Below, in pieces: positions 8,763 to 55,899 of a stretch of DNA of 64,000 nt. Both the position numbers and the translations under genes were made by a program. The notes beneath the pieces are model-generated. The model did no database searches, was not told where the DNA came from, and was given only the letters and a program-made list of their open reading frames with translations. Each line of letters begins with the position of its first letter. Positions within the stretch are counted from its first letter, which is position 1. The DNA comes from Streptomyces sp. NBC_01591 (GTDB lineage: Bacteria > Actinomycetota > Actinomycetes > Streptomycetales > Streptomycetaceae), in NCBI RefSeq assembly GCF_035918155.1, contig NZ_CP109327.1, forward strand, positions 6,262,001 to 6,326,000, read 5' to 3'.

Positions 8763-8779
8763 CACGCCGCAACGCCGGT

Positions 8780-8797: not shown

Positions 8798-8834
8798 TCC
8801 GTCTCCGTAGTCACGCCTTGCCCCGGAGGCCCCG

Positions 8835-9809
<975 letters not shown>

Positions 9810-9888
9810 CGGTCCGGCCGGAGCCCGCGGCCGACTGCTCCTCCGTACCCTCCGGATCTTCCAGACCGCAGTCCCTCTTGGAGTTGCC

Positions 9889-33396: not shown

Positions 33397-33732
33397 GCTG
33401 CCCCCTGATGTCATCCGTCGGTGAGCCGCGGCAGTGGACGCGCACCGCCCCCACCGCGTGCTCGTCATTCGGCAGCAGGCTACGTGGAGGGCTTCGGAGT
33501 GAGGGCCGGCTTCGGGGAACTTTTCCACTGTTCCTGCACATACCCGTGGTCCAAGGGGCGATTCCAGCCCGTTCAGCTCTTGTTCACTGCCGCCCACCGC
33601 CGTATCTGGCGATCAGTCACTGCCCCTGTCCCGCGCTCCGCTTGGACTTACGCAACGCGGTTGTTGGACTGGAGGGCTCCGAGTCGTCGCAGGTCGTTGA
33701 CGGTGTCCGGTCACGGGGACTACTCAGGGCAC
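33397..33732 (+). promoter_or_regulatory. Intergenic region with leaderless promoter of GH101 gene
   Basis: TTGACG at 33697-33702 and TACTCA at 33721-33726 are 18 bp apart, and the -10 ends 6 nt before ATG 33733. That predicts a message beginning at the ATG, which explains the lack of a Shine-Dalgarno there. The rest of this 336-bp gap shows no convincing gene; an open frame from 33421 joins the GH101 frame but is judged non-coding. Confidence 0.55.
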
Positions 33733-36700
33733 ATGTCGCGAAGATTCACTTCGGCGGGCGCCGTAGCCGCCGCCTCAGTCGCCGTCCTGGCGCTGGTGGG
33801 GACCGCGCTCCCCGCCACCGCCGCCGCTTCTCCCGCATCCGCCGCAGCCGGGCCGGCCGTACCCGCGGGCGCCACCGTCATCGGGTCCGCGCAGCTCTCG
33901 GTCGCCGTCGCGGACGACTTCCCGCGCGTTCTGGCGTACACCGACAAGGCCAGTGGAAGCCGGCTGTTCGGCAGTACGCAGCCGGTCACCGCCGTGACCC
34001 TGAACGGCACCGCGCACCCGGTGAAGCTCAAGGGCGCCCCCGTGGTCACCGCCTCGGCCGCCCGCTACACGCTGGTCTTCACCGACCTGCCCGGCATCGA
34101 GATCGACGCCTCGCTCTCCGTCTCCGGACGCGCCACCACCTTCAAGGTGACGGCCGTCCGCGACACCGAGGCGTTCCGTGTCGGCACCATCGACATCCCC
34201 GGCCACGACCTGGTCTCCGTCGGGTCCACGGACACCGGCGGGGCCACCGCCTTCACCCGGCTGGACAACGACTCGACGAAGACCGCCGATGTCTTCGGCA
34301 AGGTCACCGCGGACACCGCCGCCGACAAGGCGCCGGTGGGTGCCTCGTACGCGATTCTCAACACCGGGTCGCTCGCCGCGGCCGTGGAGTCCAACTCCTC
34401 GTACGACAAGCCGTCCGGTGCCACCGGCGGCGACGACGCCCGGTTCTGGCACCAGGCCCGCAAGGCCGACGACGGCAGCGTCCGGGTCGGCGTCTGGTCC
34501 GGCCAGTGGACCTACCGCGGGGACGGGGCGCCGAAGCCGGAGAGCGGGGACAACCTGCCCTGGGCGAAGGTCGTCGTCACCCCCGACGCCAACGGCGACA
34601 AGTCGGTCGACTGGCAGGACGGCGCCGTCGCGTTCCGCTCCATCGGCGTCAAGGCGCCCGGCAGCAAGGACACCCCGGACCGGGTCATCACCCACATCCC
34701 GTTCAACTTCGCCAGCCAGGCCACCCACCCCTTCCTGCGCACTCTCGACGACGTCAAGCGGGTCTCCCTGGCCACCGACGGTCTCGGGCAGCTCGCGATC
34801 CTCAAGGGCTTCGCCTCCGAGGGCCACGACTCCGCCCACCCCGACTACGGCGGCAACTACAACAAGCGCGCCGGCGGGCTGAAGGACCTCAACGAGCTCC
34901 TGAAGGACGGCAAGAAGTGGGGCGCCACCTTCGGCGTCCACATCAACGACACCGAGGCGTACCCGGAGGCCAACGCCTTCGACGAGAAGCTCGTCGACAA
35001 GACCAAGCCCGGCTGGAACTGGCTCGGCCAGAGCTACTACATCGACCAGCGCCGCGACGTGAACAGCGGTGACCTGGTCAAGCGGATACAGCAGCTGCGG
35101 GACGAGACGGACCGCAACCTCAGCCTGCTCTACTTCGACGTCTACTACACGCACGGCTGGATCCCCGACAAGACCCTCCAGGAAGTGCAGAAGCAGGGCT
35201 GGAACGTCGCCACCGAGTGGGCCGACAAGTTCGAGCGCGGCTCGCTCTGGTCGCACTGGGCCAATGACCTCGACTACGGACCCGCCACCAACAAGGGCCT
35301 CAACTCGAAGATCATCCGGTTCATCCGCAACGGCGAGAAGGACGTCTGGAACAACGACCCGGTCCTCGGCCAGACCGCGATCCAGGAGTTCGAGGGCTGG
35401 ACCGGCGAGACCGACTGGAACGCCTTCTCCAACAACATCTGGCAGCGCAACCTGCCCGCCAAGTACCTCCAGCAGCAGAAGATCACCCGCTGGGACGGCA
35501 ATGACATCACCCTCACCGGCGGTGTCCGGGGCACGATCGAGGACGGCAGGCGGACGTTCTACGACCACGGCCGCAAGGTCCTGAGCGGCACCGACTACCT
35601 GCTGCCGTGGGACGGCGGGAAGAAGCTGTACCACTACAGCAAGTCCGGCGGCACGAGCAGTTGGGCGGTGCCGTCGAAGGGCGCGTACACCGTCTACGAG
35701 CTTACCGACAACGGGCGGGTCGAGACCGGCACGGTCAAGCCCGTCGACGGGGAGATCACGCTGACGGCCAAGGCCGGTCAGCCGTACGTCCTCTACCCGG
35801 AGCAGGCGCCGGAGGCCGCCGACCCCCAGTGGGGCGAGGGCACCCCGGTCGACGACCCGGGCTTCAACGACAAGGGGCTGACCGCCTGGTCGAAGACCGG
35901 AACCGTCGCCCGTGAGACCGACGGCAAGGGCCTCAACAGCGCCCGGCTCTCCGGCAGCGGCACCGAGGCGCTCTCGCAGCGCATCGACGGCCTCGCCCCC
36001 GGCAAGCGCTACACCGCGTCCGCGCTCATCGAGGTCCAGCCCGGAAAGGCCCGGCACACCACGCTCTCCATCGGTGGGAAGTCCGTCTCGGTGGACCGCT
36101 CCACCGCGAAGGACTACGTCGCCGCGTCCGAGCGGCACGGTACGTACTTCCAGCGGGCCAAGGTGAACTTCACCGCCCCCGCGAACGGCAGCACCACCCT
36201 GCGCATCGAGGCGGCCGAAGGCAGCGCCGCGAGCGTGCGGGCCGATGACGTACGCATCGTCGCCAACGCCCCGACAACGAAGGAGAACAGCCTCTCCTAC
36301 GAGGACTTCGAGGCCGTGGACCAGGGCTGGGGCCCCTTCCTCAAGGGCGACGCGGGCGGCTCCACCGACCCCCGCACCGTCATCTCCCAGCTGCACGCCC
36401 CGTACACCCAGGCCGGCTGGAACGGAAAGCTGATCGACGACGTGATCAGCGGCAAGGAGTCCCTCAAGTCCCACGAGGAGAACGCCGGACTCGTCTACCG
36501 CACCGCCCCGTGGACCGTGCCGATGGCCGACGGGCACCGCTACAAGGTCGAGTACGACTACCAGTCCAGCCATGAGGGCGCCTACGAGTGGGTCGACGGC
36601 TACGACCGGATCACCGCCGACGGCAAGCCCGACTCGGTCGAGACCCGGACCACCGCCATCGGACAGCAGCGCACCACCGGCCACTTCGCCGAGACCGTCA

Positions 36701-37608
36701 CCGCGGGCTGTGGCGACACCTGGACCGGGCTGCGCAAGCGAGACGACGCCCCCGACGGCGCCGACTTCGTCCTCGACTCCTTCACCGTGACCGACCTCGG
36801 CCCGGCCCCCGACTCCGAGCAGGCCGCCTGCGGCACCCTCGGGATCGACCCGGGCGCCGAGACCCTGGAGCCGGGCACGGCCAACACCGTCAAGGTCTCG
36901 TTCGCCAACTACGAGGCGACGGCGGCGACCGGTGTCGCACTGAGCCTCTCCGTTCCCGAGGGCTGGAAGGCGGAGCCCTCGGGCGCCGTCACCTTCGACT
37001 CGGTCGCGGCGGGCACCGAGGTCACCGGCAGCTGGCGGGTCACTCCGCCGGTCGATGCCAAGTACCAGGTGTACGGCCTGAGTTCCGAGGCGAAGTACAC
37101 GGTCGGCGGCGCACAGCGCACGCTCGGCGCCCAGACCTCCGTACGGACCCTGCCGCCGCCGCCCACCACCGACAGCTGGGCCAGCGACCTGGACTGGACG
37201 GCCTCCGAGAACGGCTGGGGCCCGGTGGAGAAGGACCTCTCCAACGGTGAGACCGGCACCGGCGACGGCTCCCCGCTGACCATCGGCTCCACCGTCTACA
37301 CCAAGGGCCTCGGCAGCCACGCACCGGCGAAGATCCGCTACTACCTCGGCGGGAAGTGCACCTCGTTCACCGCCCGGGTCGGCGTGGACGACGTGCAGAA
37401 GAGCGCCGGCAGCGTGCAGTTCTCCGTCACGGCCGACGGCACCGAGAAGGTGAAGTCGCCCGTGCTGAAGGCGGCCGACAGCGCCTGGTCGCTGACGGCG
37501 GACGTCACCGGAGCCAAGTACGTCGAACTGGTCGTCGGCGACGGCGGCGACGGCAACGGCAACGATCACGCGGACTGGGGTGACGCACGCTTCCATTGCG
37601 GAAGCTGA
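33733..37608 (+). CDS. Secreted GH101 endo-alpha-N-acetylgalactosaminidase
   Basis: 1291-residue exported enzyme that releases the core-1 disaccharide from O-glycoproteins. The signal peptide ends near residue 32. The GH101 catalytic region covers about residues 270-600, with the nucleophile Asp in LLYFDVYYTHGW and acid/base Glu in NVATEWADKFE. A galactose-binding-like module follows (about 720-850), then a second beta-sandwich, an NEW3-type domain (LEPGTANTVKVSFANYEATAATG) and a C-terminal NPCBM domain (WASDLDWTASENGWG to the final DARFHCG). It is followed by a PL8 lyase gene, pointing to animal-derived or glycoprotein substrates. Confidence 0.92.
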   Translation: MSRRFTSAGAVAAASVAVLALVGTALPATAAASPASAAAGPAVPAGATVIGSAQLSVAVADDFPRVLAYTDKASGSRLFGSTQPVTAVTLNGTAHPVKLKGAPVVTASAARYTLVFTDLPGIEIDASLSVSGRATTFKVTAVRDTEAFRVGTIDIPGHDLVSVGSTDTGGATAFTRLDNDSTKTADVFGKVTADTAADKAPVGASYAILNTGSLAAAVESNSSYDKPSGATGGDDARFWHQARKADDGSVRVGVWSGQWTYRGDGAPKPESGDNLPWAKVVVTPDANGDKSVDWQDGAVAFRSIGVKAPGSKDTPDRVITHIPFNFASQATHPFLRTLDDVKRVSLATDGLGQLAILKGFASEGHDSAHPDYGGNYNKRAGGLKDLNELLKDGKKWGATFGVHINDTEAYPEANAFDEKLVDKTKPGWNWLGQSYYIDQRRDVNSGDLVKRIQQLRDETDRNLSLLYFDVYYTHGWIPDKTLQEVQKQGWNVATEWADKFERGSLWSHWANDLDYGPATNKGLNSKIIRFIRNGEKDVWNNDPVLGQTAIQEFEGWTGETDWNAFSNNIWQRNLPAKYLQQQKITRWDGNDITLTGGVRGTIEDGRRTFYDHGRKVLSGTDYLLPWDGGKKLYHYSKSGGTSSWAVPSKGAYTVYELTDNGRVETGTVKPVDGEITLTAKAGQPYVLYPEQAPEAADPQWGEGTPVDDPGFNDKGLTAWSKTGTVARETDGKGLNSARLSGSGTEALSQRIDGLAPGKRYTASALIEVQPGKARHTTLSIGGKSVSVDRSTAKDYVAASERHGTYFQRAKVNFTAPANGSTTLRIEAAEGSAASVRADDVRIVANAPTTKENSLSYEDFEAVDQGWGPFLKGDAGGSTDPRTVISQLHAPYTQAGWNGKLIDDVISGKESLKSHEENAGLVYRTAPWTVPMADGHRYKVEYDYQSSHEGAYEWVDGYDRITADGKPDSVETRTTAIGQQRTTGHFAETVTAGCGDTWTGLRKRDDAPDGADFVLDSFTVTDLGPAPDSEQAACGTLGIDPGAETLEPGTANTVKVSFANYEATAATGVALSLSVPEGWKAEPSGAVTFDSVAAGTEVTGSWRVTPPVDAKYQVYGLSSEAKYTVGGAQRTLGAQTSVRTLPPPPTTDSWASDLDWTASENGWGPVEKDLSNGETGTGDGSPLTIGSTVYTKGLGSHAPAKIRYYLGGKCTSFTARVGVDDVQKSAGSVQFSVTADGTEKVKSPVLKAADSAWSLTADVTGAKYVELVVGDGGDGNGNDHADWGDARFHCGS

Positions 37609-37616
37609 TCCACCAT

Positions 37617-37659
37617 GATGCGGAACGGGTGCTCACCATGTGTGTGCCCGTCCCGCATC
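37617..37659 (+). terminator. Hairpin between GH101 and PL8 genes
   Basis: GATGCGGAACGGG pairs with CCCGTCCCGCATC with one A-C mismatch, 17-base loop, 9 nt after the GH101 stop. It suggests separate transcription of the two genes. Confidence 0.65.
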
Positions 37660-37698
37660 GTGCATGCAGGGCGATTCCCTGACTACATGGAGCCGCAC

Positions 37699-40047
37699 AT
37701 GCCGAACTCGCCCGCCTGGTCCCGCCGTACCCTGTTGACCCTCTCCGCCGCCACCGCCCTGGCCGTCGCCCTGCCCGGTTCCGCCACGGCCGCCGGTACC
37801 GCCGCGGACGTCGACGAATTCGACGTCCTCTGCCGCCGCTGGGCCGGCATCGCGCTCGGCACCGGCTACGACCCGAGGAACGAACCCTTCGCCTCCCGCC
37901 TGGCCGATACGGGCACACTCGCCCGCGGGTTCCGGTCGACGATGAGCCCGGCCGCGGACTCGCTGTGGCCCGGCGTCGCGTACAACCCGCCGTCCGGCAT
38001 CACCCAGAGCTACAGCCGGCTCTGGACGATGACCCAGGCGTACGTCCAGCCCGGCACCGGCTCGACCAACGACGCCGCCCTCCTCGCCGACATCCTCCGC
38101 GGCTGGGACCACCTGGCCGCGACCGCCTACCACTCCTCCGTCACGCCGTACGGCAACTGGTGGGAGTGGCAGATCGGCAGTCCGCGCATCCTGATGGACA
38201 TCGCCGCCGTGCTGTACGGACAGCTGGGCGCGGCCCGCGTCGAGGCGGCCTGCGCGGCCGTCGACCACTTCATCCCCGACGAGGTCCTGCGCGTCTACAG
38301 CGGCACCTCCACCGGCGCCAACCGGGTCGACCTGTGCCGCTCCGTCGCCCTGCGCGGGGTCCTCGGCCGGGCACCCGCCAAGGTCGCCCTCGCCAGGGAC
38401 GCCCTGTCACCCGTCTTCCCGTACGTCACCAAGGGGGACGGCCTGTACGCGGACGGGTCGTTCATCCAGCACACCACCGTCGCCTACTCCGGCACCTACG
38501 GCCAGGTCATGCTCGACGGGCTCGGCCGGCTCTTCGCCCTGCTCGCCGGATCCACCTGGGCCGTCACCGACCCGAACCGGCAGGTCATCCTGGACAGCGT
38601 CGAGCACGCCTACGCGCCGCTGATCCACAACGGCCTGATCATGGACAGCGTCAGCGGTCGTGCCATCAGCCGCGGTTACATGAAGCACGACGACCTCCAG
38701 GTGATGCGCAGCGACCACTTCCACGGGCAGGGCGTCATAGCCGGGATCGCCCTCCTCGCCGCGAGCGCCTCGGTGGCCGAGCGCGACCGGTGGCACGGCA
38801 TGGTCAAGGGCTGGATCGCCCGTGAGCAGACCAGCGCGATCCTCACCGCCCGCCAGTTCTCCGTCGCGGACCTGGCCCGGCTGCACGCGGTCCAGGACAC
38901 CGCCGTCCCCGCCGCACCGGAGCGGGTGGGCCACCACCTCTTCGCCCAGATGGCCCGCGCCGTGCACCGGCGCCCGGACTGGGCCGCCGGCATCTCCATG
39001 GCCTCCGAGCGGATCTCGTACTACGAGTGCGGCAACGGCGAGAACCCGCGCGGCTGGCACACCGGCGCCGGAATGCTCTACTGGTGGCCGGGAGCGAAGC
39101 AGAACGACCAGTACACCGACTGGTTCTGGCCCACCGTCAACCCCTACCGGCTGCCCGGCACGACCGTGTCCACCAAACGGCTCGCCGACCGCGCCGGCGG
39201 TGAATGGGGTGCGGCCAGGCCCGCGGCGCGATGGGTCGGCGGCGCCACCGACGGCGAGTACGGCGCGGTCGGCCAGCACCTCAAGGGCCTCGGCTCCACC
39301 CTGGACGCCCGCAAGTCGTGGTTCTGCGCCGCCGACACGGTCATCTGTCTCGGCGCCGGCATCACCGCCACCGACGGGGTGCCCGTCGAGACGATCGTCG
39401 ACAACCGCATGCTCGGCTGGAACGGCACCGAACCGCTCACCGTCGACGGCCGCGCCGAACCCCGCTGGGCCCATCTGGAGGGCCACGGCGGCTGGGTCTT
39501 CCCCGGCGGTGCGGACCTGCGCACCTTGCGCGAGGACCGCACCGGCGCCTGGTCCGACATCAACATCATCAGCTCCACCGAGCGCCGCACCCGCCGCTAC
39601 CAGACCCTCTGGCTCGACCACGGCACCGACCCGGAGGCCGCCGGCTACGTCTACCTGCTGATGCCCGGCGCCTCCCGCCGCACCGTCGCCGCCCGCGCCG
39701 CCGACGGAGGGTGGCTGACCGTGCTCGCCAACACCGCCGCCGCCCAGGCGGTCGCGGTGCCTTCGCAGGGGTTGACCGCCGCCAACTTCTGGCGGGCGGG
39801 CACGGCCGGACCGCTCTCCGTCACGGCCCCGGCGAGCGTGCTCGTACGGCAGCGGCGGGAGACGACGACGCTGTGCGTGAGCGGGCCGGACCGCAGCGGC
39901 GCCCCGGTGGAGGTGGTGTGGGAGCGGCCGGTACGGGAGGTCCTCTCCGCGGACCCGGGGATCGAGGTGCGCGCCACCGGACGGCGCCTGGTGCTCCGGG
40001 TCGATCCGGGGACGGCGGGCGTCACCCTCCGGTGTGACGTCCGGTAG
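37699..40047 (+). CDS. Secreted PL8 polysaccharide lyase (hyaluronate/chondroitin/xanthan type)
   Basis: 782-residue lyase with a Tat-type signal (SRRTLLTLSAATALAVALPGSATA). The alpha/alpha toroid carries the catalytic Asn in YGNWWEWQIGSPR, and His and Tyr in FIQHTTVAYSGTYGQVML. The beta-sandwich half includes YYECGNGENPRGWHTGAGMLYWW and WPTVNPYRLPGTTV. Family PL8 beta-eliminates uronic-acid polymers; hyaluronan or chondroitin is likely, xanthan possible. ATG 37699 has GGAG 6 nt upstream; earlier starts at 37687 and 37615 lack one. Confidence 0.9.
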   Translation: MPNSPAWSRRTLLTLSAATALAVALPGSATAAGTAADVDEFDVLCRRWAGIALGTGYDPRNEPFASRLADTGTLARGFRSTMSPAADSLWPGVAYNPPSGITQSYSRLWTMTQAYVQPGTGSTNDAALLADILRGWDHLAATAYHSSVTPYGNWWEWQIGSPRILMDIAAVLYGQLGAARVEAACAAVDHFIPDEVLRVYSGTSTGANRVDLCRSVALRGVLGRAPAKVALARDALSPVFPYVTKGDGLYADGSFIQHTTVAYSGTYGQVMLDGLGRLFALLAGSTWAVTDPNRQVILDSVEHAYAPLIHNGLIMDSVSGRAISRGYMKHDDLQVMRSDHFHGQGVIAGIALLAASASVAERDRWHGMVKGWIAREQTSAILTARQFSVADLARLHAVQDTAVPAAPERVGHHLFAQMARAVHRRPDWAAGISMASERISYYECGNGENPRGWHTGAGMLYWWPGAKQNDQYTDWFWPTVNPYRLPGTTVSTKRLADRAGGEWGAARPAARWVGGATDGEYGAVGQHLKGLGSTLDARKSWFCAADTVICLGAGITATDGVPVETIVDNRMLGWNGTEPLTVDGRAEPRWAHLEGHGGWVFPGGADLRTLREDRTGAWSDINIISSTERRTRRYQTLWLDHGTDPEAAGYVYLLMPGASRRTVAARAADGGWLTVLANTAAAQAVAVPSQGLTAANFWRAGTAGPLSVTAPASVLVRQRRETTTLCVSGPDRSGAPVEVVWERPVREVLSADPGIEVRATGRRLVLRVDPGTAGVTLRCDVR

Positions 40048-40115: not shown

Positions 40116-41498
40116 ATGGGGGAGTTGAAGGCGGACTGGCGGCTCCGGCTGCGACAGGGCGCCGCGGACGGGCCCGTCTGCGGCGCCGGTGTGCTGCTCA
40201 CTCAGGACCGGGCACTCACCTGCGCGCACGTCGTGGGGGAGCCGGACGCCCGGATCTGGGTGGAATTCGCCGAGAACCCCGCCATCGCCCCGGTCGGGGC
40301 ACGCGTGGCCGAGGGCGGCTGGCTGCCCGGTCTCGGGGCGACCCGCGAGGACATCGCCGTACTCGCCCTGGACAGCCCGCGCCCGCACGCCACCCCCGCG
40401 ACGCTCGACCGGAGCCTGGAGCGCGGCCGCGAGGTGTGGATCGGCGGGTACGCGCGGTCCTTCGCCGACGGGATGTGGCTGACCGGGCGGATCAGCGGAG
40501 CGCACGGCGCGTGGATCCAGCTCGACGCCGGGCGCAACGAGCAGGTGGTGAAACCGGGGTTCAGCGGGGCCGCCGTGCAGGTGCGCGGCGGGCCGGCCGG
40601 ATCGCCCGAGCGGGTCGTCGGGATGGTCGTCAGCTGGCGCGGCGACCTCGACCTGGCGCTGCCCGCCGAGAACGACCTGGCGTTCTCGTACATGATCCCG
40701 ATCGATCGGATCGCCGAACTCGTCCCGCTGGTCGCCGAGTTGAGCGGCCCGGACGGCTGGGACCACGGGCTGGCCCGGCGGCTGCGGAGATGGTTCGCCG
40801 GGGGCGACGAACCCGCGGTGCGCTTCAGCGTCGTACCGCACGGCGGCGGCCGCGACCGCACCCTCCGCCACCACCTGCACCGCGCCCATCTCGTCTACCG
40901 GGGCGGACGCACCACCCCCGAGGACTTCGTCGACGAGCTGGTGACCAGGCTGCGGCCGCCCCGCCACCAGGCCCAGGCGTACCGCGAGTGGTTGCTCGTG
41001 GGCGGCACCCCGCCCGGGTGGCCGGTGGACGGCGGGCCCGGGAGCGCGGGGCCCACCCTCGCCGTGATCGGCCTCGACGAGGACCGGCAGCCGCACCGGC
41101 TGGTGCCCCTGCTCGCACGGGTGCGGACGCTCGGCTTCCGGCTGCTCGTCGTCGTGCGGGACAGCCGCGGCGAAGAGGTGAACGAGGTGGCGCGGCAGCT
41201 GCTGTTACCCGCCCTCGACGAGCGGGCCGCCGAACTGGTCCGCCGCGTCGAGGGCATCGAAACGGAGTGGGCCGGGCTGAACGGCCTGGTGGAATCGGCC
41301 TCCCTGAGCCCCCTGCCGCGGACCGACGCGGCCCGCCGCCGGCAGCAGCTGGCACGACTGCGCACCGTCGACGACCCGTACGAGCGGCTCAGGGCCCTGC
41401 GCGCCCTGCTGCGTGAACTCCGGGCGGACCTGGAGAGGCACGGCCGGGCGGACGTACCCGGACAGCGCGGCGACCAGGGACGGGCCGGTCACCGATGA
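40116..41498 (+). CDS. Trypsin-like serine protease, operon gene 1; TTA codon
   Basis: 460 residues. The N-terminal S1-type protease domain has a full triad: His38 (LTCAHVV), Asp79 (REDIAVLALD) and Ser150 (KPGFSGAAV). Residues about 230-440 form an alpha/beta then helical region of unknown fold. There is no signal peptide, so the protease is probably cytoplasmic. Codon 364 (41205-41207) is TTA, which predicts bldA dependence. The stop overlaps the kinase start (ATGA). Cytoplasmic trypsin-like domains joined to regulatory modules are known from bacterial conflict and signalling systems, but its target here is unknown. Confidence 0.85.
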   Translation: MGELKADWRLRLRQGAADGPVCGAGVLLTQDRALTCAHVVGEPDARIWVEFAENPAIAPVGARVAEGGWLPGLGATREDIAVLALDSPRPHATPATLDRSLERGREVWIGGYARSFADGMWLTGRISGAHGAWIQLDAGRNEQVVKPGFSGAAVQVRGGPAGSPERVVGMVVSWRGDLDLALPAENDLAFSYMIPIDRIAELVPLVAELSGPDGWDHGLARRLRRWFAGGDEPAVRFSVVPHGGGRDRTLRHHLHRAHLVYRGGRTTPEDFVDELVTRLRPPRHQAQAYREWLLVGGTPPGWPVDGGPGSAGPTLAVIGLDEDRQPHRLVPLLARVRTLGFRLLVVVRDSRGEEVNEVARQLLLPALDERAAELVRRVEGIETEWAGLNGLVESASLSPLPRTDAARRRQQLARLRTVDDPYERLRALRALLRELRADLERHGRADVPGQRGDQGRAGHR

Positions 41499-43840
41499 GG
41501 ATTCCCTGCCCGCACCGCCGGTTCACCGGAGCCCCCTGCGACGGCGCCGTGCAGCCCACCGGCTACTGCGACACCTGCGGCCGCTCCGAGGACGGCCCGG
41601 GACTCCCGCCGCTGCCCGCCGCCCCCGACAAGTGCGGGCCCAGAGGACTGCTGGAACTGCCCCTGCTCAGCCCGAGCACCCCCGAACAGCGGCTGAGCGC
41701 CGCCGTGACACAGGCACACGTCCGGATGAGCTGCTCGTCCAAGTCCTGCGCCACGTACTTCGTCGCCCCGTACACCGCCGCCCCGCCGCCCGACGAGGGC
41801 CACTGCCCCAGATGCGGCGCCCCGTACTCCTACCGCCCCGAACTCCACCGGGACGGGCCGCTGCTCCAGGACCAGTACCGGATCCTCGGGCCCATCGCCC
41901 ACGGCGGCCAGGGCTGGGTCTACCTCTCCTTCGACACCCACCTGGAAGACCTCGTCGCCGTGAAGGGGATGCTGAACCGGTACGCGGAACGGGGCGCCGC
42001 CCAGGCCGCCGAGGAGCGCCGCAGCCTCGTCGCCATCCGGCACGAACGCATCGTCCAGATCCGGGACTTCGTCAGCACCAGCAGCGAGGACGGCACGGTC
42101 TCCGGCGGCTACATCGTGATGCAGGACGTCGGCGACCGCACACTCTCCGCCGTCGTCGAATCGACCCGGCAGGGCAACTTCGTCCTCGACATCGAGCACG
42201 TCATCACCTACGGCTGCCAGATCCTCGAAGCCCTCGCCCATCTGCACGGCATGGGATTCCTGTACGGGGACATGAAGCCGTCCAACGTCGTCCACCAGCA
42301 CGACGGCGTCAAGGTCATCGACCTCGGCGGGGTGCGGGGGAGCGGATCCGCCGGGCCACCGCCCGTCATCACCCCCCGGTACGCCGCGCCCGAGATGGTC
42401 AGCGGCAGTCCGCTCACCGTCGCCCACGACATCCACACGGTCGGGGCGACACTGGCCGAACTGGCGGGCTGGGCGGTCGGTGACGACGTACCCGGCCTCG
42501 GCATCAGCTCGTTCCGGCTGGTCGTGGAGCGGGCGACCGACCAGGACCCGGAACGCCGGTTCGCCGACGCCGAGGAGATGGCGGGCCAGCTGCGCGGAGT
42601 GCTGCGCGAGATCCGGGCACTGCGCGGGAAGCGGGACCGGACCGAACCATCCGCGTACTTCACCCCGTCCACCGAACTGCTCGGCGCGAGGCTGGGCTCC
42701 GTACCCGACTACGCGCACTGGCTGGACCGTACTCCGCACCGCCGCGACGAGACGCGCGAAGCGCCCGCCCTGGACCCCGGGCTCCCCACCCCCACCGAGA
42801 TCGCCCGTCGGCTGCCGGTGCCCAGGCCCTATCCGGGGGACCCGGAGGCCGCCCGGTTCCTGGTCAGCAGCTACGACCCCGGCCGGCTGCTGGCCCAGCC
42901 CGCCGAGGGGGAGCGGTCGGTGGAGATCTGTCTGCACAACGCCCGGCTGCTGCTCGGCCAGGAGGGCGTCGAAGCGCTGACCCGGGCGCGCGAACAGGTG
43001 GAGGCGGCGAACGCCATACCCGGCCCCGGCCCGGTGCGGCAGTGGCGGCTGAGCTGGCACTGGGGCCTCGTCGCGCTGCGCAGCGCGGAGGTCCTGGACG
43101 ACCGGCGGCAGCTGCTGGAGGCCGCCCGGGAGCACTTCGCCGCCGTCCACCGCGCGCTGCCCGGCGAGTACGCCGCGAAGCTGGCCCTGGCCTACGCCGC
43201 GGAACAGCTCGGCCCGGACCGCCCGGCCGGTCCGATCCCGTCGGCGTACGAACTCTTCCGGGCCGTGCACGCCCGCAACCCCTCCCACGTCGGTGCCGCG
43301 CTGGGCCTGGCCAGGCTGGCCCTGGCGCGCGGCGACCGGGACGCGGCGGCCGAGGTCCTGGACCTGGTGCCGGACGAGTCGCGGGACCACACCGTCGCCC
43401 GGATCGCCGCGCTGCGCATCCGGGCGGCCCGGCTCGCGGCGGGCGGGCGGCCGCTGCCCGGGAAGCGGCGGATCGACGCCGTGCTCGCCGCGGTACCCCT
43501 GCGCGAAGGCGGCCCGGCACCGCATCCGGCATCCGTGGTGACGGGCGACGAATCGGCCCGGCTGCTGCGCACCGAACTGTACGAGTGGAAGCTCGACGCG
43601 GTCCGGGACGAGGCCGGCGGCCCGCGGCACGACGGCCGCTGGTGGCGGCGGGGACTGCCACCGGCGCCGATGCCCGGGGAACGGGCCGTACGGGAGGACC
43701 TGGCCCGGTGCTACCGCTGGATGGCCCGGCAGTGCAAGGACACCGCCGACCACGAGAAGCTCATCGACCTCTCGCACGCCGTCCGCCCGCAGACCCGCTT
43801 CTGGTTCCCACCCCGACGCCGTACCCCTGGAGGCAGTTGA
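41495..43840 (+). CDS. PknG-like Ser/Thr protein kinase, operon gene 2
   Basis: 781 residues in PknG order. An extra N-terminal zinc-ribbon-like Cys set (Cys5, 15, 25, 28) comes first, then a rubredoxin-like Cys pair of pairs (C80, C85, C104, C107). The kinase domain spans about 128-370 (IAHGGQGWVYLSFD, Lys157 in VAVKG, catalytic YGDMKPSNVV replacing HRD, DLGG replacing DFG, TPRYAAPE), and a C-terminal TPR-type helical region about 430-690. Mycobacterial PknG has rubredoxin, kinase and TPR parts and controls 2-oxoglutarate metabolism through a small FHA protein. No such FHA substrate is encoded nearby. Confidence 0.9.
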   Translation: MRIPCPHRRFTGAPCDGAVQPTGYCDTCGRSEDGPGLPPLPAAPDKCGPRGLLELPLLSPSTPEQRLSAAVTQAHVRMSCSSKSCATYFVAPYTAAPPPDEGHCPRCGAPYSYRPELHRDGPLLQDQYRILGPIAHGGQGWVYLSFDTHLEDLVAVKGMLNRYAERGAAQAAEERRSLVAIRHERIVQIRDFVSTSSEDGTVSGGYIVMQDVGDRTLSAVVESTRQGNFVLDIEHVITYGCQILEALAHLHGMGFLYGDMKPSNVVHQHDGVKVIDLGGVRGSGSAGPPPVITPRYAAPEMVSGSPLTVAHDIHTVGATLAELAGWAVGDDVPGLGISSFRLVVERATDQDPERRFADAEEMAGQLRGVLREIRALRGKRDRTEPSAYFTPSTELLGARLGSVPDYAHWLDRTPHRRDETREAPALDPGLPTPTEIARRLPVPRPYPGDPEAARFLVSSYDPGRLLAQPAEGERSVEICLHNARLLLGQEGVEALTRAREQVEAANAIPGPGPVRQWRLSWHWGLVALRSAEVLDDRRQLLEAAREHFAAVHRALPGEYAAKLALAYAAEQLGPDRPAGPIPSAYELFRAVHARNPSHVGAALGLARLALARGDRDAAAEVLDLVPDESRDHTVARIAALRIRAARLAAGGRPLPGKRRIDAVLAAVPLREGGPAPHPASVVTGDESARLLRTELYEWKLDAVRDEAGGPRHDGRWWRRGLPPAPMPGERAVREDLARCYRWMARQCKDTADHEKLIDLSHAVRPQTRFWFPPRRRTPGGS

Positions 43841-45250
43841 ATGGGCCGCACCGCCGCGTCGACCGGCCTCGGGATCAGCCTCTCCGTCCAGGTCGCGGAG
43901 CAGCAGCGGCCGGACCCGGACGCCCGGATCGACGCCCATGTGAGGGTCCGGGCGCTCGCCGTCGGGCCGCGCGACCGGATTCCCGCCGTCGACATCGCGC
44001 TGGTCATCGCGGTGGACGTGGCCGCCGGGCGGCGTGACGCGGCCGTCGCGGCGCTGACCGACGCCGTGGGCGCCCTGCCCGACGGGATCTCCTACACCGT
44101 GCTGGGCGGCGAAGCCTCGCAGTGCTACCCGCTGCGCGGCCGGTGGGCGCTCGCCGGCCCCGACGACCGGCGCCACGCCGTTTTCAGCGTCGGACGGATC
44201 ACCGCGTCCGCCGAGGGACAGGAGCCGTCCGGATACACCACCTGGCTGGCCAGGGCGCGCGAACTCTTCGCCGAACGCGCCCTCCCCGTACGGCACCTGG
44301 TGCTCATCACCGACGGCTCCAGCCGGGGCGACGAGGACGACACCTCCCGCCCGGACAGCGCACTGAACATCGAACTCGCCCGCTGCGAAGGAGAGTTCAC
44401 CGCCGACGTCATCGCCCCGGGAGCGGGCTGGGACCCGGCTCCGCTGCTCGCCGTCACGGAACGGCTGCACGGCGCCGCCGCGTCCTCGCCCGACGCCTTC
44501 GCCCCCGCGGTCGCCGAGGCCCTGGGCAGGCTGCGCCGGGTCCGCAGCCCCGAGCTCCCCATCGAGGTGACCGTGCGCCCGAATGTGCGGGAAGCGACGC
44601 TGATCGAGACCGCACCGCACCAGCAGCGGCTGGAGCCGGAACCGGTCCGGGACGATCCACGCCGGCTGGAGTTCCGCACCCACCAGTGGAAGCCGGAATC
44701 CCGCGACTACCTCCTCACCCTCCGGGCCGACGCGAGCAACGACCCGCTGGGCGTGCCCCTCCAGCTCGCCGCGGTCATCGTCGGCGGCGCCACCGAAGCG
44801 GTCGTGGTCCGCTGGCTGCCGCCGGGAACCGCCGCGGCCACCGCGCGCATCTCCGGCGCCGCGGGCCGCGACATCCACACCATGAACGTCTCCACGCGGA
44901 TGCGGACCGCCCTCAACGACGGGTACGCCGCCCTCGACCTGGGGAGCCGCGAGCGGGCCGAGGCGAAGCTCGGACTCGCCGTCCGGCTCGCCACCGAGAT
45001 CGCCGCGGACTGGGTCCTGGACGAGGTCCGCAAGGTCGCCCGCATCGTGGACGGCCAGCGGGGGATCGTCCGGATCGGGCCGACCGTCGACCCGGGCACC
45101 GTCCGCCAGGGAATGCTGAGCATCACCTCCGGGCACCCGGTCGAGCTGCCCCCGGTGCCCCGGGCCGGTACGGAGACCCAATGCCCGCACTGCGACCATC
45201 CGGCCGGACCCGCGGCCGCGTTCTGCATCGACTGCGGGAGGCAGCTGTGA
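43841..45250 (+). CDS. VWA-domain protein with C-terminal zinc ribbon, operon gene 3
   Basis: 469 residues. A von Willebrand A-like fold lies at about 45-220, with core strands VDIALVIAVDVAAG and HLVLITDGSSRGD. The MIDAS motif is degenerate: the first Asp and the later Thr and Asp remain, but both serines of DxSxS are missing. A beta-rich middle follows, then a helical segment and a terminal zinc ribbon CPHC ... CIDC. It begins directly after the kinase stop (TGAATG) with GGAG upstream. It may be a scaffold joining the kinase with the membrane sensor; that is inference. Confidence 0.8.
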   Translation: MGRTAASTGLGISLSVQVAEQQRPDPDARIDAHVRVRALAVGPRDRIPAVDIALVIAVDVAAGRRDAAVAALTDAVGALPDGISYTVLGGEASQCYPLRGRWALAGPDDRRHAVFSVGRITASAEGQEPSGYTTWLARARELFAERALPVRHLVLITDGSSRGDEDDTSRPDSALNIELARCEGEFTADVIAPGAGWDPAPLLAVTERLHGAAASSPDAFAPAVAEALGRLRRVRSPELPIEVTVRPNVREATLIETAPHQQRLEPEPVRDDPRRLEFRTHQWKPESRDYLLTLRADASNDPLGVPLQLAAVIVGGATEAVVVRWLPPGTAAATARISGAAGRDIHTMNVSTRMRTALNDGYAALDLGSRERAEAKLGLAVRLATEIAADWVLDEVRKVARIVDGQRGIVRIGPTVDPGTVRQGMLSITSGHPVELPPVPRAGTETQCPHCDHPAGPAAAFCIDCGRQL

Positions 45251-46254
45251 GGCTCGGACCGGCCCGGTCGCGCAGGAGCGCCTACCGCTCCCGCACCCGG
45301 CGGCTGCTGGAGTGGCATCTGGCCGCGATGCTGGTGGCCGCCCTGGTCTCGATGAGTGCCCTGCTCGTCTCGTACCGCGAGGTCCAGATCTCGGCGGGCG
45401 AGATGCGCGCCCGTGGCGCCCCGGCCGTACAGGGCGTGGCCGCCACCCAGCTCGCCCTGCTGCGCGCCCACGAGGAGGCCGATCGCTCCGTGCGGCACCG
45501 CATCACCGATGTGGTGGGCGCCGGTGCCGGCTACGAGAACCAGCTCGCCGCCGCCGACCAGGGCCTGTCCCGCCTCTCCGACGTACAGATCGACGGGGAC
45601 CGCGGCCGTGGGGTGCTCGAAACCGTGAACGGGCTGCTCACCTCGTACAGCAGCTCCATCACCCCCGGCGCGGTGAAGTACGTGTCGGACGATCTGATGC
45701 AGGAGGAGAAGTTCGCCGAGGCCGAGAGGCTCCTCACTCGTGAGCGCACCGGTGTGGTGCCGCGCCTGGACGTCCTCCAGGGGCACCAGATGGCCCGGAT
45801 CGACACGCTCAGCTCGATGAGCGCCCTGCAGTGGTCCGGCTGGGCGGTCGCCGAACTCGGCCTGCTGGCCATGGTCCTGATCACCCTCTCCGCGCTGTGG
45901 GTGCTGCGCACCCGCTGCGGCCACAGCCTCGACCTCTGTCTGCTGGTCTCGCTGCTGGCCGTGGTCTTCCTGGCGACGGGCCCGCTGATCGCGACGAGCG
46001 TCACCCAGGACCGGTTGGGCACGGCCCGCGACGGGCTGGTCCGGATCGAACAACAGGCTGACGACCACAGCGATCTGGCCAGGTCCCAGCAGACCGTCAC
46101 CGAGACAGCGACCCGGGTGCGCGCCGGGCTGGCCGCCCAGGGCTGGCAGAGCGGCATGTACTACGGGGCGCTCACCGCCGGTGCCCTGATCGTGCTGCTG
46201 CCCGCCGTCGGCATCGGCCGGCACCTGAACGCCGACTACTGGAGGACCGGATGA
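45247..46254 (+). CDS. GlnX-like four-TM helical-sensor membrane protein, operon gene 4
   Basis: 335 residues. TM1 is at about 24-45, then an extracytoplasmic helical domain of about 145 residues, TM2 and TM3 at about 200-245, a second helical outer segment (DRLGTARDGLVRIEQQADDHSDLARS...), and TM4 near 303-322. The helical outer domains suit docking of a binding protein. In mycobacteria and corynebacteria, GlnX has this size and topology and links the lipoprotein GlnH to PknG. GTG 45247 overlaps the previous stop by 4 nt. Confidence 0.75.
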   Translation: MRLGPARSRRSAYRSRTRRLLEWHLAAMLVAALVSMSALLVSYREVQISAGEMRARGAPAVQGVAATQLALLRAHEEADRSVRHRITDVVGAGAGYENQLAAADQGLSRLSDVQIDGDRGRGVLETVNGLLTSYSSSITPGAVKYVSDDLMQEEKFAEAERLLTRERTGVVPRLDVLQGHQMARIDTLSSMSALQWSGWAVAELGLLAMVLITLSALWVLRTRCGHSLDLCLLVSLLAVVFLATGPLIATSVTQDRLGTARDGLVRIEQQADDHSDLARSQQTVTETATRVRAGLAAQGWQSGMYYGALTAGALIVLLPAVGIGRHLNADYWRTG

Positions 46255-47486
46255 TGCTGCGCGCCCGCGCGGTCCTGCTCGTCCTGTGTCTGATGCTGGC
46301 CGCGACGGGCTGCGGGCTCGCCGCTCCCGGCGGCGGCGACGAGCAGCCGAAGGTGACCATCCTCGGGCCGTGGACCGACAACCAGGAGACGCAGTTCAAG
46401 GCCGTCCTGGACACGTTGGGCACCCCTTACACCTACCAGGGCACCGCCGCCAGCCGGGAGGTCCTGCTCGCCGCGGTGCAGGCGGGCAATCCGCCCGACA
46501 TCGCGATCCTGCCGGGCGTCGGGGATCTCGTCGAGTACGCCGCCGAGCGCCGGCTGCACCCGCTGGGCGGCAAGGGCGCGGCCGCGAAGTACGGCAAGCC
46601 CTGGCAGCCGGAGGCGAGGGGCATCGAGGCGGACCTCTGGGTGGCTCTCAAGGCGGACCTCAAGAGCATCGTCTGGTACCGCAAGGACCGGCCGCCGCCC
46701 TCCTACCCGGCGCCGCTGACCTCCTGGTGCATCGGCATGGGCGACGACGGGGCATCGGGCTGGCCGGGCAGCGACTGGATCGAGGACCTGATCCTGCAGA
46801 CGGCGGGCCCGGTGCTGTACGAGCGATGGGCGACCGGGGGCCTGAAGTGGACGGACGGCCCGGTGCTCAATGCCTGGAGCCTGTGGGCCGGCCTGCTGGC
46901 CCAGGACCGGGACGCGGCCGGCCGGGCCCTGCTCGACGACCACCGGGGCGGGCCCGACGGGCGCGGGCTGCTCTTCGACGGCGGTTGCGACCTGGAGCAC
47001 CAGGGCTCCTTCGCCAGGTCCTTCTACGGGGACCACAGCGGGCAGGCCGCCTTCACGGACTCCGCGCCACTGCTGCCCTCGGGCCCGAGGATCAAGGGAC
47101 GCGAGGTGTCCGCCGACTTCGCCGCGCTCTTCGGCAGCTCGACACAGGCCCGCGATCTGCTCACCCGGCTCACCTCCCGCGAGGCCCAGGCGGAGTGGGG
47201 CCGCAAGGCCGGGGTATTCTCGCCGAACTCCGACGTGCCCGCCAGGAAAGGTACGGTCGAGAAGCAGATCAGCAGCCGTCTCACCGACCAGCGCGTGCCC
47301 CTCTGTCTGGACGCCTCCGATGTGATGCCCGCCGCCGTACGGGACGCCTTCTACGAGGCGGTGCTGCTGACCATCGCCCACCCCGATGCCCCGGTGCGGG
47401 ACCGGCTGGATGACATCCAGCGGGTCCAGGCCGCCCAACCGGGCCACACCCCGAGGCTGACAGGGGTGTGCAGCAGACCACAGTGA
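46251..47486 (+). CDS. Orphan solute-binding lipoprotein, family 1, operon gene 5
   Basis: 411 residues. A lipoprotein signal ends in LAATGC. The mature chain has family-1 (sugar-type) binding-protein features: VTILGPWTDNQETQFKAVLD, AGNPPDIAILPG, AAERRLHPL, WYRKDRPP and GAFSPN-like VFSPNSDVP. No permease or ATPase accompanies it, so it is probably a ligand receptor for the membrane protein, not a transporter part. GlnH in PknG systems is a family-3 amino-acid binder; here the fold is different, so the ligand should differ, perhaps a sugar. The start overlaps the previous stop (ATGATG). Confidence 0.85.
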   Translation: MMLRARAVLLVLCLMLAATGCGLAAPGGGDEQPKVTILGPWTDNQETQFKAVLDTLGTPYTYQGTAASREVLLAAVQAGNPPDIAILPGVGDLVEYAAERRLHPLGGKGAAAKYGKPWQPEARGIEADLWVALKADLKSIVWYRKDRPPPSYPAPLTSWCIGMGDDGASGWPGSDWIEDLILQTAGPVLYERWATGGLKWTDGPVLNAWSLWAGLLAQDRDAAGRALLDDHRGGPDGRGLLFDGGCDLEHQGSFARSFYGDHSGQAAFTDSAPLLPSGPRIKGREVSADFAALFGSSTQARDLLTRLTSREAQAEWGRKAGVFSPNSDVPARKGTVEKQISSRLTDQRVPLCLDASDVMPAAVRDAFYEAVLLTIAHPDAPVRDRLDDIQRVQAAQPGHTPRLTGVCSRPQ

Positions 47487-49570: not shown

Positions 49571-50152
49571 CTACCGCAGCCGAGCCATGAGCGCGTGTTC
49601 GACGAGCGTGATCAGCGCACTCTTCGCATCCGCACGGTGCCGCGCATCCGTCGTCAGAATCGGCGTGTCGGGGCCGATCTGGAGGGCTTCGCGGACTTCG
49701 TCGGGGGTGTAGGGCTGGTGTCCGTCGAAGCCGTTGAGGGCGATGACGAAGGGGAGGCCGCTGTTCTCGAAGTAGTCGACGGCGGGGAAGCAGTCGGCGA
49801 GGCGGCGGGTGTCGACGAGGACGACGGCGCCGATGGCGCCGCGGACCAGGTCGTCCCACATGAACCAGAAGCGGTCCTGTCCGGGCGTACCGAAGAGGTA
49901 CAGGATCAGGTCCTGGTCCAGGGTGATGCGACCGAAGTCCATCGCCACCGTGGTGGTGGTCTTGTCCCCGGTGTGCGTCAGGTCGTCGATGCCCGCGGAC
50001 GCGGACGTCATCACGGCTTCGGTGCGCAGCGGATTGATCTCCGAGACGGCACCGACGAACGTGGTCTTACCCACGCCGAAGCCCCCTGCCACCACGATCT
50101 TCGCCGAGGTAGTAGAGCGGGCTGCTCCGCCGCTAGAGCTTGCGAAGTCCAC
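49571..50152 (-). CDS. cvnD: Conservon GTPase CvnD (first conservon)
   Basis: 193-residue small GTPase. It has P-loop GGFGVGKTT, switch II-like FGTPGQDRFWFMWD and NGFDG in the place of NKxD. It is the nucleotide switch of the CvnA-D membrane-associated complex, which resembles eukaryotic G-protein systems. GTG 50152 overlaps cvnC by 20 nt. It differs from the second CvnD (54797-55378) at only five residues. By remembered synteny this conservon corresponds to SCO5537-SCO5540. Confidence 0.93.
   Translation of the reverse strand: MDFASSSGGAARSTTSAKIVVAGGFGVGKTTFVGAVSEINPLRTEAVMTSASAGIDDLTHTGDKTTTTVAMDFGRITLDQDLILYLFGTPGQDRFWFMWDDLVRGAIGAVVLVDTRRLADCFPAVDYFENSGLPFVIALNGFDGHQPYTPDEVREALQIGPDTPILTTDARHRADAKSALITLVEHALMARLR
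49665..49942. repeat. 278-bp perfect repeat, copy 1 (in cvnD)
   Basis: Identical base for base to 54891-55168, inside the paralogous cvnD. Mismatches start immediately outside (C/G at 49664, C/G at 49943). Confidence 0.9.
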
Positions 50153-50759
50153 TGAGCACCCTTTCGAGCAGTGTCACATCTGGCTGGCCGCCGGCGGACT
50201 CGTCGCCGCCGGGCTGATGGATAGCGACGAGTCCGGCCTCTGCCAGGTCGGCTACGAGGATCCGGGCAACGCCGAGCGGGATCGAGAGCAGTGCCGAAAT
50301 CTCGGCGACCGACTTGATCTCGAAACACAGCCGGCAGATCCGCTGGTGCTCGGGCAACTGCCCTTGCAGCCGGGACGGATCAGCCGTGGTACTGACCAAC
50401 GCCTCAATGGCGAGTTGGTAGCGCGGTCGGGTCCGGCCGCCGGTCATGGCGTACGGACGAACCAGCGGATTGTGCGCGGCGGGCGCGGCAGGCTCGGGGG
50501 TCTGCCGCGGCTGTACCGGCTGAATACGGGGCGTCCGGGGCGAGTCGTAGCGGTGCGGACGCTGCGTGGGCCACCCGGAACTCTGCCGGGTGTCCTGCGG
50601 CGGCTGCTGAGGCTGCTGCGGCTGCTGCTGATAGGGCCGGTAAGGCTGCTGGGCGCTCTGTCCGCTGGGTGCGGAGGGGAAATTGAATCGGTTGTCCCCG
50701 TGCTCACCCGGTACCTGCCGGCCACCGTTGTACGGGTGTCCGCCCTGGGGTGTGTCCAC
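50133..50759 (-). CDS. cvnC: Conservon DUF742 protein CvnC (first conservon)
   Basis: 208 residues. The N-terminal 95 are Pro/Gln-rich and disordered (PYQQQPQQPQQPPQ). The DUF742 core follows: LVRPYAMTGGRTRPRYQLAIEALVSTT, LPEHQRICRLCFEIKSVAEISALLSIPLGVARILVADLAEAGLVAIHQP, ending VTLLERVLSGLRKL; it is a winged-helix-like fold. The long tail is absent from the second CvnC (135 aa). GTG 50759 has GGAGGA upstream. Confidence 0.92.
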   Translation of the reverse strand: MDTPQGGHPYNGGRQVPGEHGDNRFNFPSAPSGQSAQQPYRPYQQQPQQPQQPPQDTRQSSGWPTQRPHRYDSPRTPRIQPVQPRQTPEPAAPAAHNPLVRPYAMTGGRTRPRYQLAIEALVSTTADPSRLQGQLPEHQRICRLCFEIKSVAEISALLSIPLGVARILVADLAEAGLVAIHQPGGDESAGGQPDVTLLERVLSGLRKL

Positions 50760-50848
50760 GATTCCTCCTCCGACTACCGGTCCCGATCCCAGTGGGTCCG
50801 CGCCACCGCACCTTATGGCCCGGTGGCGCGAAACGCACTGTCTGCCTA

Positions 50849-51271
50849 CTAGTTAAGAAGACTTCCCTGCAGTTCAGCACGGAGGTCCGGGGTGAGGACA
50901 CTGCCCGCACGGTCGACGAGAAGTGCCATTTCGTACCCGACCAGACCGATATCGGCGTCCGGATGTGAGAGAACGGCCAGCGAGGATCCGTCGGAAATGG
51001 ACATGATGAAGAGGAATCCGCGCTCCATCTCCACAACTGTCTGATTCACCGCACCGCCCTCGAAGATCCGCGAGGCACCCGCGGTCAGCGAGGTCAGCCC
51101 GGAGGCGACGGCCGCCAGCTGGTCGGCACGGTCACGGGGGAATCCCTCGGACATGGCCAGCAGGAGTCCGTCGGCGGAGACCACCACCGTGTGCGACACC
51201 CCAGGGGTGTTGTCCACGAAGTTGGTGATCAACCAGTTCAGATTCTGCGCCGCCTGGCTCATCGGGCTCAC
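50849..51271 (-). CDS. cvnB: Conservon roadblock/LC7 protein CvnB (first conservon)
   Basis: 140-residue roadblock/LC7 domain protein (NLNWLITNFVDNTPGVSHTVVVSADGLLLAMSEGF ... LTPDLRAELQGSLL), the likely GTPase-activating or scaffold partner. GTG 51271 follows AGGAG embedded in the end of cvnA; an inner ATG at 51262 is the alternative. One base separates it from the cvnA stop. Confidence 0.93.
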   Translation of the reverse strand: MSPMSQAAQNLNWLITNFVDNTPGVSHTVVVSADGLLLAMSEGFPRDRADQLAAVASGLTSLTAGASRIFEGGAVNQTVVEMERGFLFIMSISDGSSLAVLSHPDADIGLVGYEMALLVDRAGSVLTPDLRAELQGSLLN

Positions 51272-54796: not shown

Positions 54797-55378
54797 CTAC
54801 TTGAGCCGAGCCATGAGCGCGTGCTCCACGAGCGTGATCAGACCGCTCTTGGCATCCGCACGGTGCCGGGCGTCCGTCGTGATGATCGGGGTGTCGGGGC
54901 CGATCTGGAGGGCTTCGCGGACTTCGTCGGGGGTGTAGGGCTGGTGTCCGTCGAAGCCGTTGAGGGCGATGACGAAGGGGAGGCCGCTGTTCTCGAAGTA
55001 GTCGACGGCGGGGAAGCAGTCGGCGAGGCGGCGGGTGTCGACGAGGACGACGGCGCCGATGGCGCCGCGGACCAGGTCGTCCCACATGAACCAGAAGCGG
55101 TCCTGTCCGGGCGTACCGAAGAGGTACAGGATCAGGTCCTGGTCCAGGGTGATGCGACCGAAGTCCATGGCGACGGTCGTCGTCGTCTTGCCCCCGGTGT
55201 GCGTCAGGTCGTCGATGCCCGCGGACGCGGACGTCATCACGGCTTCCGTACGCAACGGGTTGATCTCCGAGACGGCACCGACGAACGTGGTCTTGCCCAC
55301 GCCGAAGCCCCCTGCCACCACGATCTTCGCCGAGGTGGTGGCCCGGGCCGCACCGCCGCTAGAGCTTGCGAAGTCCAC
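54797..55378 (-). CDS. cvnD: Conservon GTPase CvnD (second conservon)
   Basis: 193 residues, with P-loop GGFGVGKTT, FGTPGQDR and NGFDG as in the first copy; differences are Ala13, Gly63, an Ile for Leu, a Gly for Ala and a terminal Lys. It overlaps cvnC by 20 nt. From memory this conservon corresponds to cvn1 of S. coelicolor (SCO5544-SCO5541). Confidence 0.93.
   Translation of the reverse strand: MDFASSSGGAARATTSAKIVVAGGFGVGKTTFVGAVSEINPLRTEAVMTSASAGIDDLTHTGGKTTTTVAMDFGRITLDQDLILYLFGTPGQDRFWFMWDDLVRGAIGAVVLVDTRRLADCFPAVDYFENSGLPFVIALNGFDGHQPYTPDEVREALQIGPDTPIITTDARHRADAKSGLITLVEHALMARLK
54891..55168. repeat. 278-bp perfect repeat, copy 2 (in cvnD)
   Basis: Identical to 49665-49942. The flanking parts of the two genes are clearly diverged at silent positions. 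Confidence 0.9.
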
Positions 55379-55766
55379 TGAGCACCCTTTCGAGCAGTGT
55401 CACATCCGGCGCGCCGCCGGTCTCTCCATTGCCCGGCTGGTGGATGGCCACCATGCCGGCTTCCGCCAGGTCCGCCACGAGGATCCGGGCCACGCCGAGC
55501 GGCATCGACAGCAGTGCCGAGACCTCGGCCACCGACTTGACCTCACGGCAGAGGTGGCAGATCCGCTGGTGCTCGGGGAGCAGGGTCCCCAGATGCGCGG
55601 GGTCGGCCGTGGTGGAGACCAGTGCCTCTATGGCGAGCTGATAGCGCGGCCGGGTCCGGCCACCGGTCATGGCGTACGGGCGGACCAGTGGCTGGTCGCC
55701 TTCACCTTCGTACGACGCGTGGTGCAGTGCGCCGTACGGATCGGGTGAGGCGGGTGGCGGGGTCAT
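55359..55766 (-). CDS. cvnC: Conservon DUF742 protein CvnC (second conservon)
   Basis: 135-residue DUF742 protein (QPLVRPYAMTGGRTRPRYQLAIEALVSTTADPAHLGTLLPEHQRICHLCREVKSVAEVSALLSMPLGVARILVADLAEAGMVAIHQPG). It lacks the Pro/Gln tail of the first CvnC. GGAGGA lies before ATG 55766. Confidence 0.93.
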   Translation of the reverse strand: MTPPPASPDPYGALHHASYEGEGDQPLVRPYAMTGGRTRPRYQLAIEALVSTTADPAHLGTLLPEHQRICHLCREVKSVAEVSALLSMPLGVARILVADLAEAGMVAIHQPGNGETGGAPDVTLLERVLSGLRKL

Positions 55767-55899
55767 GAATCCTCCGGGCGTGACAGCAGTACGTCGGCTT
55801 GCCGTCTGAAGGGGCCGGTGGGGGGCTCTAAGCGGCCTGACGGGTGAGGGATGAGGGCATTACCTGGGGCAATCGAGTCTGTCATCGATCCATGGCCGC

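Follow-up and report, generated by a model that had tools for sequence, protein, structure and literature searches.

PknG has been known as a metabolic switch that responds to amino acids: in the GlnH-GlnX-PknG system, an FHA substrate (GarA/OdhI) controls 2-oxoglutarate metabolism. What might a kinase of this type be doing in an operon that also encodes a trypsin-like protease and a sugar-type solute-binding protein (SBP)? Such an operon, consisting of five coupled genes at 40116..47486 (+ strand), lies in a 64-kb stretch of DNA from Streptomyces sp. NBC_01591 that is referred to as the window. The gene order is protease, PknG-type kinase, VWA/zinc-ribbon protein, GlnX-like protein and SBP lipoprotein. 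An ORF check of the window located all five genes where a sequence-only reading had placed them, with junctions of 4, 0, 4 and 4 nt. Pfam returned Trypsin_2 for the first protein, PknG_TPR and Pkinase for the second, VWA_3 and weak zinc ribbons for the third, no match for the GlnX-like protein, and a sub-threshold SBP_bac_1 match for the SBP. Our preferred reading, which we hold at a probability of about 0.6, is that the operon represents a second, paralogous GlnX-PknG line with a sugar-type sensor and a kinase-coupled cytosolic protease as its output.

Relation to the canonical PknG locus

The experimental precedent is GlnH-GlnX-PknG of mycobacteria and Corynebacterium glutamicum. Three papers (PMC6069109, PMC9769921, PMC8546545) report that Asp and Glu are ligands of GlnH, that GlnX contains four helices, that losing glnX has the same effect as losing pknG, and that the system needs the TPR domain of PknG. 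PknG_TPR matches two places in the Streptomyces sp. NBC_01591 genome, the window operon and a canonical locus (L033) with the order GlnX-like protein, SBP_bac_3 protein, coiled-coil protein, PknG, PP2C phosphatase, VWA protein (with an intact MIDAS) and FHA protein. Since the genome carries this canonical locus in addition to the window operon, we regard the latter as a divergent second module.

The kinase (781 aa, 41495..43840, + strand) has the features of a PknG-type Ser/Thr kinase: a cysteine-rich N terminus with the rubredoxin-like residues C80/C85/C104/C107, a kinase domain and a TPR domain. PknG_TPR scored 112.4 bits and PknG_rubred just 17.1 bits, under the cut-off; the four cysteines align with those of the canonical kinase. 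The best sequence match in the PDB is PknG itself (2pzi, E = 2.4e-66). Among 62 aligned rows, the catalytic residues are kept wherever a residue occupies the position (K157 in 57/57, D259 in 59/59 and D276 in 58/58).

The GlnX-like membrane protein (335 aa, 45247..46254, + strand) has hydrophobic stretches at residues 25-43, 201-219, 230-248 and 306-324. Its family is homologous to canonical GlnX as judged by hhalign (96.9%, E = 1.7e-10), and four hydrophobic stretches were found by hydropathy, at the same threshold, in 13/13 operon GlnX proteins and 3/4 canonical ones. Profile match and hydropathy together point to the four membrane helices and extracytoplasmic helical domains of GlnX, as a predicted topology. 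The relation to GlnH-GlnX-PknG proposed in the sequence-only reading is borne out by homology to canonical-locus proteins in the kinase, in GlnX and, as described below, in the C terminus of the protease.

With GlnH-GlnX-PknG and L033 the window operon shares a PknG kinase (TPR domain, metal-site cysteines), a four-helix GlnX and a membrane-tethered, transporter-free SBP, all in one operon. It differs from them in that its SBP has the SBP_bac_1-type sugar fold rather than SBP_bac_3, its coiled-coil homologue carries a trypsin domain, its VWA protein bears a zinc ribbon, its GlnX is shorter, and no FHA or PP2C gene was found by Pfam among the five genes. PMC6069109 mentions SCO1468 and SGR_4432 as SBP-linked kinases in one sentence and without detail; the likeness, as mentioned there, is a kinase gene adjoining an SBP gene in Streptomyces.

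The retention of kinase, GlnX and SBP sensor would also fit a redundant metabolic line, in which the kinase responds to a sugar cue instead and phosphorylates a GarA/OdhI-type FHA protein encoded elsewhere; L033 of the same genome does encode an FHA protein. We consider this quite improbable, given the missing FHA and PP2C genes and the separation of the kinases in a quick tree. There, a branch with support 100 parts 54 operon kinases (8 of the 62 rows were too short to include) from 4 canonical kinases, which all come from one family; several branches were flagged as long.

A trypsin domain on a coiled-coil homologue

The first gene encodes a predicted cytosolic trypsin-like protease (460 aa, 40116..41498, + strand) with a Trypsin_2 domain, a middle domain of putative alpha/beta character (about residues 215-350) that lacks a Walker A motif, and a C-terminal helical region. 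Its catalytic residues are His38 (40227..40229), Asp79 (40350..40352) and Ser150 in the motif G-F-S-G (40563..40565), all on the + strand. In an alignment of 55 sequences, His was found in 53/53 and Asp in 53/53 of those with a residue at the position, and Ser in 53/54, with Gly in L089. The intact triad that had been read from the window sequence is thus a property of nearly all aligned members. The protease kin search scored 7993 candidates and retained 172 proteins at E <= 0.001; among the best 120 of these, where a source gives a name at all, it goes no further than serine protease, S1 family, trypsin-like peptidase or hypothetical protein.

In its C-terminal part, the protease family shows homology to the coiled-coil protein encoded at L033 (97.5%, E = 7.9e-12, 123 columns), which by Pfam has no protease domain, and each of the two genes lies directly upstream of its own kinase gene. 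The window protease is shorter than most of its relatives and retains just the first part of the coiled-coil-like region. Judged by these comparisons, what the operon adds to the canonical genes is a trypsin domain, carried by a homologue of their coiled-coil protein.

The VWA protein (469 aa, 43841..45250, + strand; VWA_3 and weak DZR in Pfam) has a C-terminal zinc ribbon that is also seen in alignments. The sequence-only reading had taken it for a second new part; that view did not hold, because a VWA gene is present at the genome's canonical locus too. The same reading described a zinc ribbon and a degenerate MIDAS. Both are present in the window protein, whose first MIDAS motif reads D-V-A-A-G, but degeneracy is not a general trait: D-x-S-x-S is intact in 42/61 operon VWA proteins (owing to an alignment gap, the second serine was scored row by row, on the five residues counted from D59). 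The other 19 comprise the window protein, those of 17 loci grouping with it, and the L129 copy, which is broken. The VWA part is ancestral and the degenerate MIDAS a trait of the window's own branch. The MIDAS serines were lost in this one branch (window 43841-45250 and the 17 related loci) and kept in the others.

Conservation and distribution of the five-gene set

To survey the set we scanned one genome per species with an SBP profile and used the best 80 of 565 confirmed places, all in named genomes, with score thresholds of 90 bits for the protease, 140 for the kinase, 150 for VWA, 40 for GlnX and 90 for the SBP. All five genes were present at 43 of these best 80 loci, in the same order at 42 of the 43, and full sets were recovered from Streptomyces, Actinacidiphila, Kutzneria, Amycolatopsis, Saccharopolyspora and Micromonospora. 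The sequence-only reading had staked itself on co-conservation of the five genes, and they are co-conserved; chance adjacency was rejected on the census. No description of the five-gene set was found in the open-access papers searched, as judged by titles and abstract openings.

Among the same best 80 of 565, GlnX adjoins the SBP at 60 loci, 17 have an SBP with permease motifs and no GlnX, and 3 have neither; 5 of the incomplete loci among the 60 are cut by the contig start. A kinase, GlnX and SBP without a protease above threshold were observed at seven loci (L083, L091, L100, L109, L128, L138 and L154), of which L091 and L109 are truncated where their contigs begin, while in L083 a stretch of 100 N directly precedes the kinase. 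VWA calls are absent from L099, L100, L119 and L138. Five uncut loci carry GlnX and SBP but neither protease, kinase nor VWA; the GlnX-SBP pairs at L126, L130, L131, L133 and L134 (about 8500-11300), with no kinase, protease or VWA call nearby, are orphan receptors.

The protease could instead be a feedback or assembly factor that trims GlnX, the kinase or VWA, with unlinked substrates being phosphorylated as the true output; loci where kinase, GlnX and SBP occur but no protease was called agree with this account. The protease carrier region, being homologous to a protease-free coiled-coil protein, may first have served in scaffolding, which suits the same account. A triad kept in nearly all members requires just some proteolytic role, and the account departs from our preferred reading mainly in the substrate; we think it unlikely.

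In the window's family, 50 of 150 genomes had a protease match at E <= 1e-30, and 30/150 had one of near full length by reading of the rows; 27 of these 30 had a VWA match on the same contig at a distance of about 5 kb or less. Across the phylum (396 genomes, 4 candidates scored per genome), the VWA profile gave 25 matches at E <= 1e-10, and very strong matches were limited to 12 genomes of the window's own genus and one other genome (G332). As VWA matches are few and strongest in these genomes, the module is clustered and not general in the phylum. Spread on plasmids was set aside, a tblastn search of PLSDB with the VWA protein having given no match.

The flanks of the operon were also inspected. 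Directly 5′ of it (window 33421-40047) are genes for a GH101 endo-alpha-N-acetylgalactosaminidase and a PL8 polysaccharide lyase. We considered them as a clue to the ligand, but GH101 is close to the operon in 3/81 loci (L079, L081 and L084) and PL8 in 2/81 (L079 and L081), in stretches that reach just 2 to 5.5 kb upstream of the protease and would miss a more distant GH101; they were not counted as parts of the system. Downstream, at 49571-51271 and 54797-56322, are two tandem GTPase/roadblock-type gene sets, which we take to be conservon-like and whose DNA is 89-90% identical over 893 and 429 nt.

A sugar-type SBP linked to GlnX

The last gene encodes a solute-binding lipoprotein (411 aa, 46251..47486, + strand) with a lipobox-like Cys21, spotted by eye. 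A model and fold search, together with conserved columns, place it in the sugar type: the predicted fold is closest to galactose, glucose, xylo- and chitin-oligosaccharide SBPs, its Pfam match is weakly to SBP_bac_1, and it is not of the amino-acid type SBP_bac_3. Compared with the SBPs of sugar ABC transporters (AcbH, glucose/galactose-binding protein, BxlE and NagB2), it is alike in fold and in residues conserved among transporter-linked SBPs. It differs in an additional conserved pair, C352/C407, in the lack of a nearby permease motif, and in its occasional fusion to GlnX. C352 is present in 65/73 GlnX-linked SBP rows vs 0/20 other rows, and C407 behaves likewise.

We searched ORFs longer than 200 aa and no more than 6 kb away from the end of the SBP for the EAA-loop motif of permeases and detected it at none of the 60 GlnX-linked loci, 7 of which hold <6 kb downstream of the SBP, where a permease could escape detection. 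In the window, the one downstream flanking gene scanned matched no permease family. The earlier description of a sugar-type SBP without transporter genes is upheld by these results and the fold search. Titles at 16 of the 17 permease-linked loci do not name Actinobacteria; the other, L142, is an Actinobacteria MAG. In a quick tree of 89 of 93 SBP rows (L093, L129, L152 and L153 being left out as short), the GlnX-linked rows form one side of a branch with support 100 when L124 is left uncounted. L124 comes from a contig that begins at the SBP; scoring it as GlnX-free gives 2 changes on the tree, and otherwise there is 1.

Because the fold and many conserved residues match those of transporter SBPs, the protein could be an orphan that serves an ABC importer encoded at a distance, with the remaining four genes forming an unrelated unit. 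This is very improbable and was rejected as the main reading: permease motifs occur at 0/60 GlnX-linked vs 17/20 GlnX-free loci (with <6 kb of downstream sequence at 7 of the 60), GlnX-SBP fusions exist, and the sole other related SBP found in the genome, a paralogue of 29% identity, adjoins its own EAA-motif ORFs. That paralogue, the nearest in the genome (L163 1-7209, C1:3441001 onward), lies beside two ORFs with the permease-like motif; ahead of them is encoded a long protein whose N terminus looks, by eye, like an FHA domain.

Gene fusions and joint inheritance

GlnX and SBP form a single ORF at four distinct loci (L038, L040/L111 from one organism, L105 and L108). At the other end of the operon, L119 (a Pseudonocardiales MAG) has a single 1140-aa ORF in which residues 14-401 correspond to the protease and 427-1138 to the kinase; L099 probably has a similar ORF, with a weaker protease score. 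These fusions of neighbours argue for, but do not prove, physical coupling of the pathway parts, SBP with GlnX outside and protease with kinase inside. Pairwise gene distances among the five genes correlate with r of 0.73-0.94 over 48 loci (53 loci were common to all five genes, and 5 odd rows were dropped first). The correlations agree with joint inheritance and not specifically with binding, and plain vertical descent could explain them.

Comparison with Trypco/trypsin conflict systems

In PMC7159879, Trypco2 is named after its association with trypsins in conflict systems, and such trypsins and Trypco genes are reported in conflict systems of multicellular bacteria. We scanned 97 stretches, namely the window, 16 other loci and the 80 census loci (best 80 of 565). 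In 20 of them (L040 and L111 represent one organism), a Trypco2-like gene adjoined the protease gene and was encoded on the other strand; Pfam PF19631 confirmed Trypco2 in 3 loci. The genes are at 14615-14914 in L037, 4947-5249 in L039, 4441-4743 in L040, and in 17 more loci. A scan of the window itself found no Trypco2; the genome's sole match lies immediately 5′ of another gene, whose N terminus looks trypsin-like by eye. Given the 20 loci with Trypco2 beside the protease, the protease arm was possibly borrowed from the Trypco/trypsin repertoire of conflict systems.

Taken further, this suggests a conflict or self-destruct circuit in which SBP-GlnX-PknG senses wall damage or an invader and unleashes a trypsin from that repertoire on the cell. 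The patchy distribution (30/150 family genomes, by row reading) would suit such a circuit, as would the Trypco2 neighbours and the reported setting of their relatives. As that paper describes them, the vWA-MoxR (VMAP) systems with Trypco/trypsin resemble the operon in combining a trypsin-like peptidase with a vWA protein, and the Trypco2 neighbour at 20 loci may add to the likeness. Unlike them, the operon has neither MoxR nor VMAP among the scanned genes, the window has no Trypco2, and the protease is tied to a GlnX/SBP sensor and a PknG kinase. More broadly, a Pfam scan of the five genes and of three genes flanking them turned up no MoxR, VMAP, iSTAND or EACC1 partner. In the operon, the sole PADLOC hits were to kinase models, and a listed defence system was rejected on that ground. 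With the genome's one Trypco2 gene next to a different trypsin-like gene, we regard a conflict circuit as rather unlikely.

Discussion

Returning to a second GlnX-PknG line with a protease output, the pathway can be sketched by analogy to GlnH-GlnX-PknG. The membrane-tethered family-1 SBP would bind a sugar or oligosaccharide outside the cell and contact the extracytoplasmic helices of GlnX, which would relay the state of the SBP across the membrane. Signalling would run from SBP to GlnX to kinase, with the protease and VWA protein in the same complex. The cytosolic kinase, docked via its TPR domain, may phosphorylate partners in that complex, with the carrier region of the protease, the VWA scaffold or both as the likeliest targets. 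This phosphorylation may alter the activity of the trypsin-like protease or access to it.

A more specific scenario is possible, and we offer it tentatively. An extracellular oligosaccharide on the SBP, for example a fragment of the wall or of a competitor's polymer, would act through GlnX-PknG to switch on the protease of the same complex; cleavage of cell proteins would then bring about a developmental or self-sacrifice response. Such a system might have arisen when a Trypco-class trypsin was joined to the coiled-coil subunit in a PknG nutrient sensor.

Judging by this operon, GlnX-PknG looks like a reusable relay across the membrane, able to take a different sensor, here a sugar-type SBP, and a different output, here a protease. 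Common soil bacteria thus provide a case, open to experiment, where a Ser/Thr kinase may place an internal protease under the control of an external ligand.
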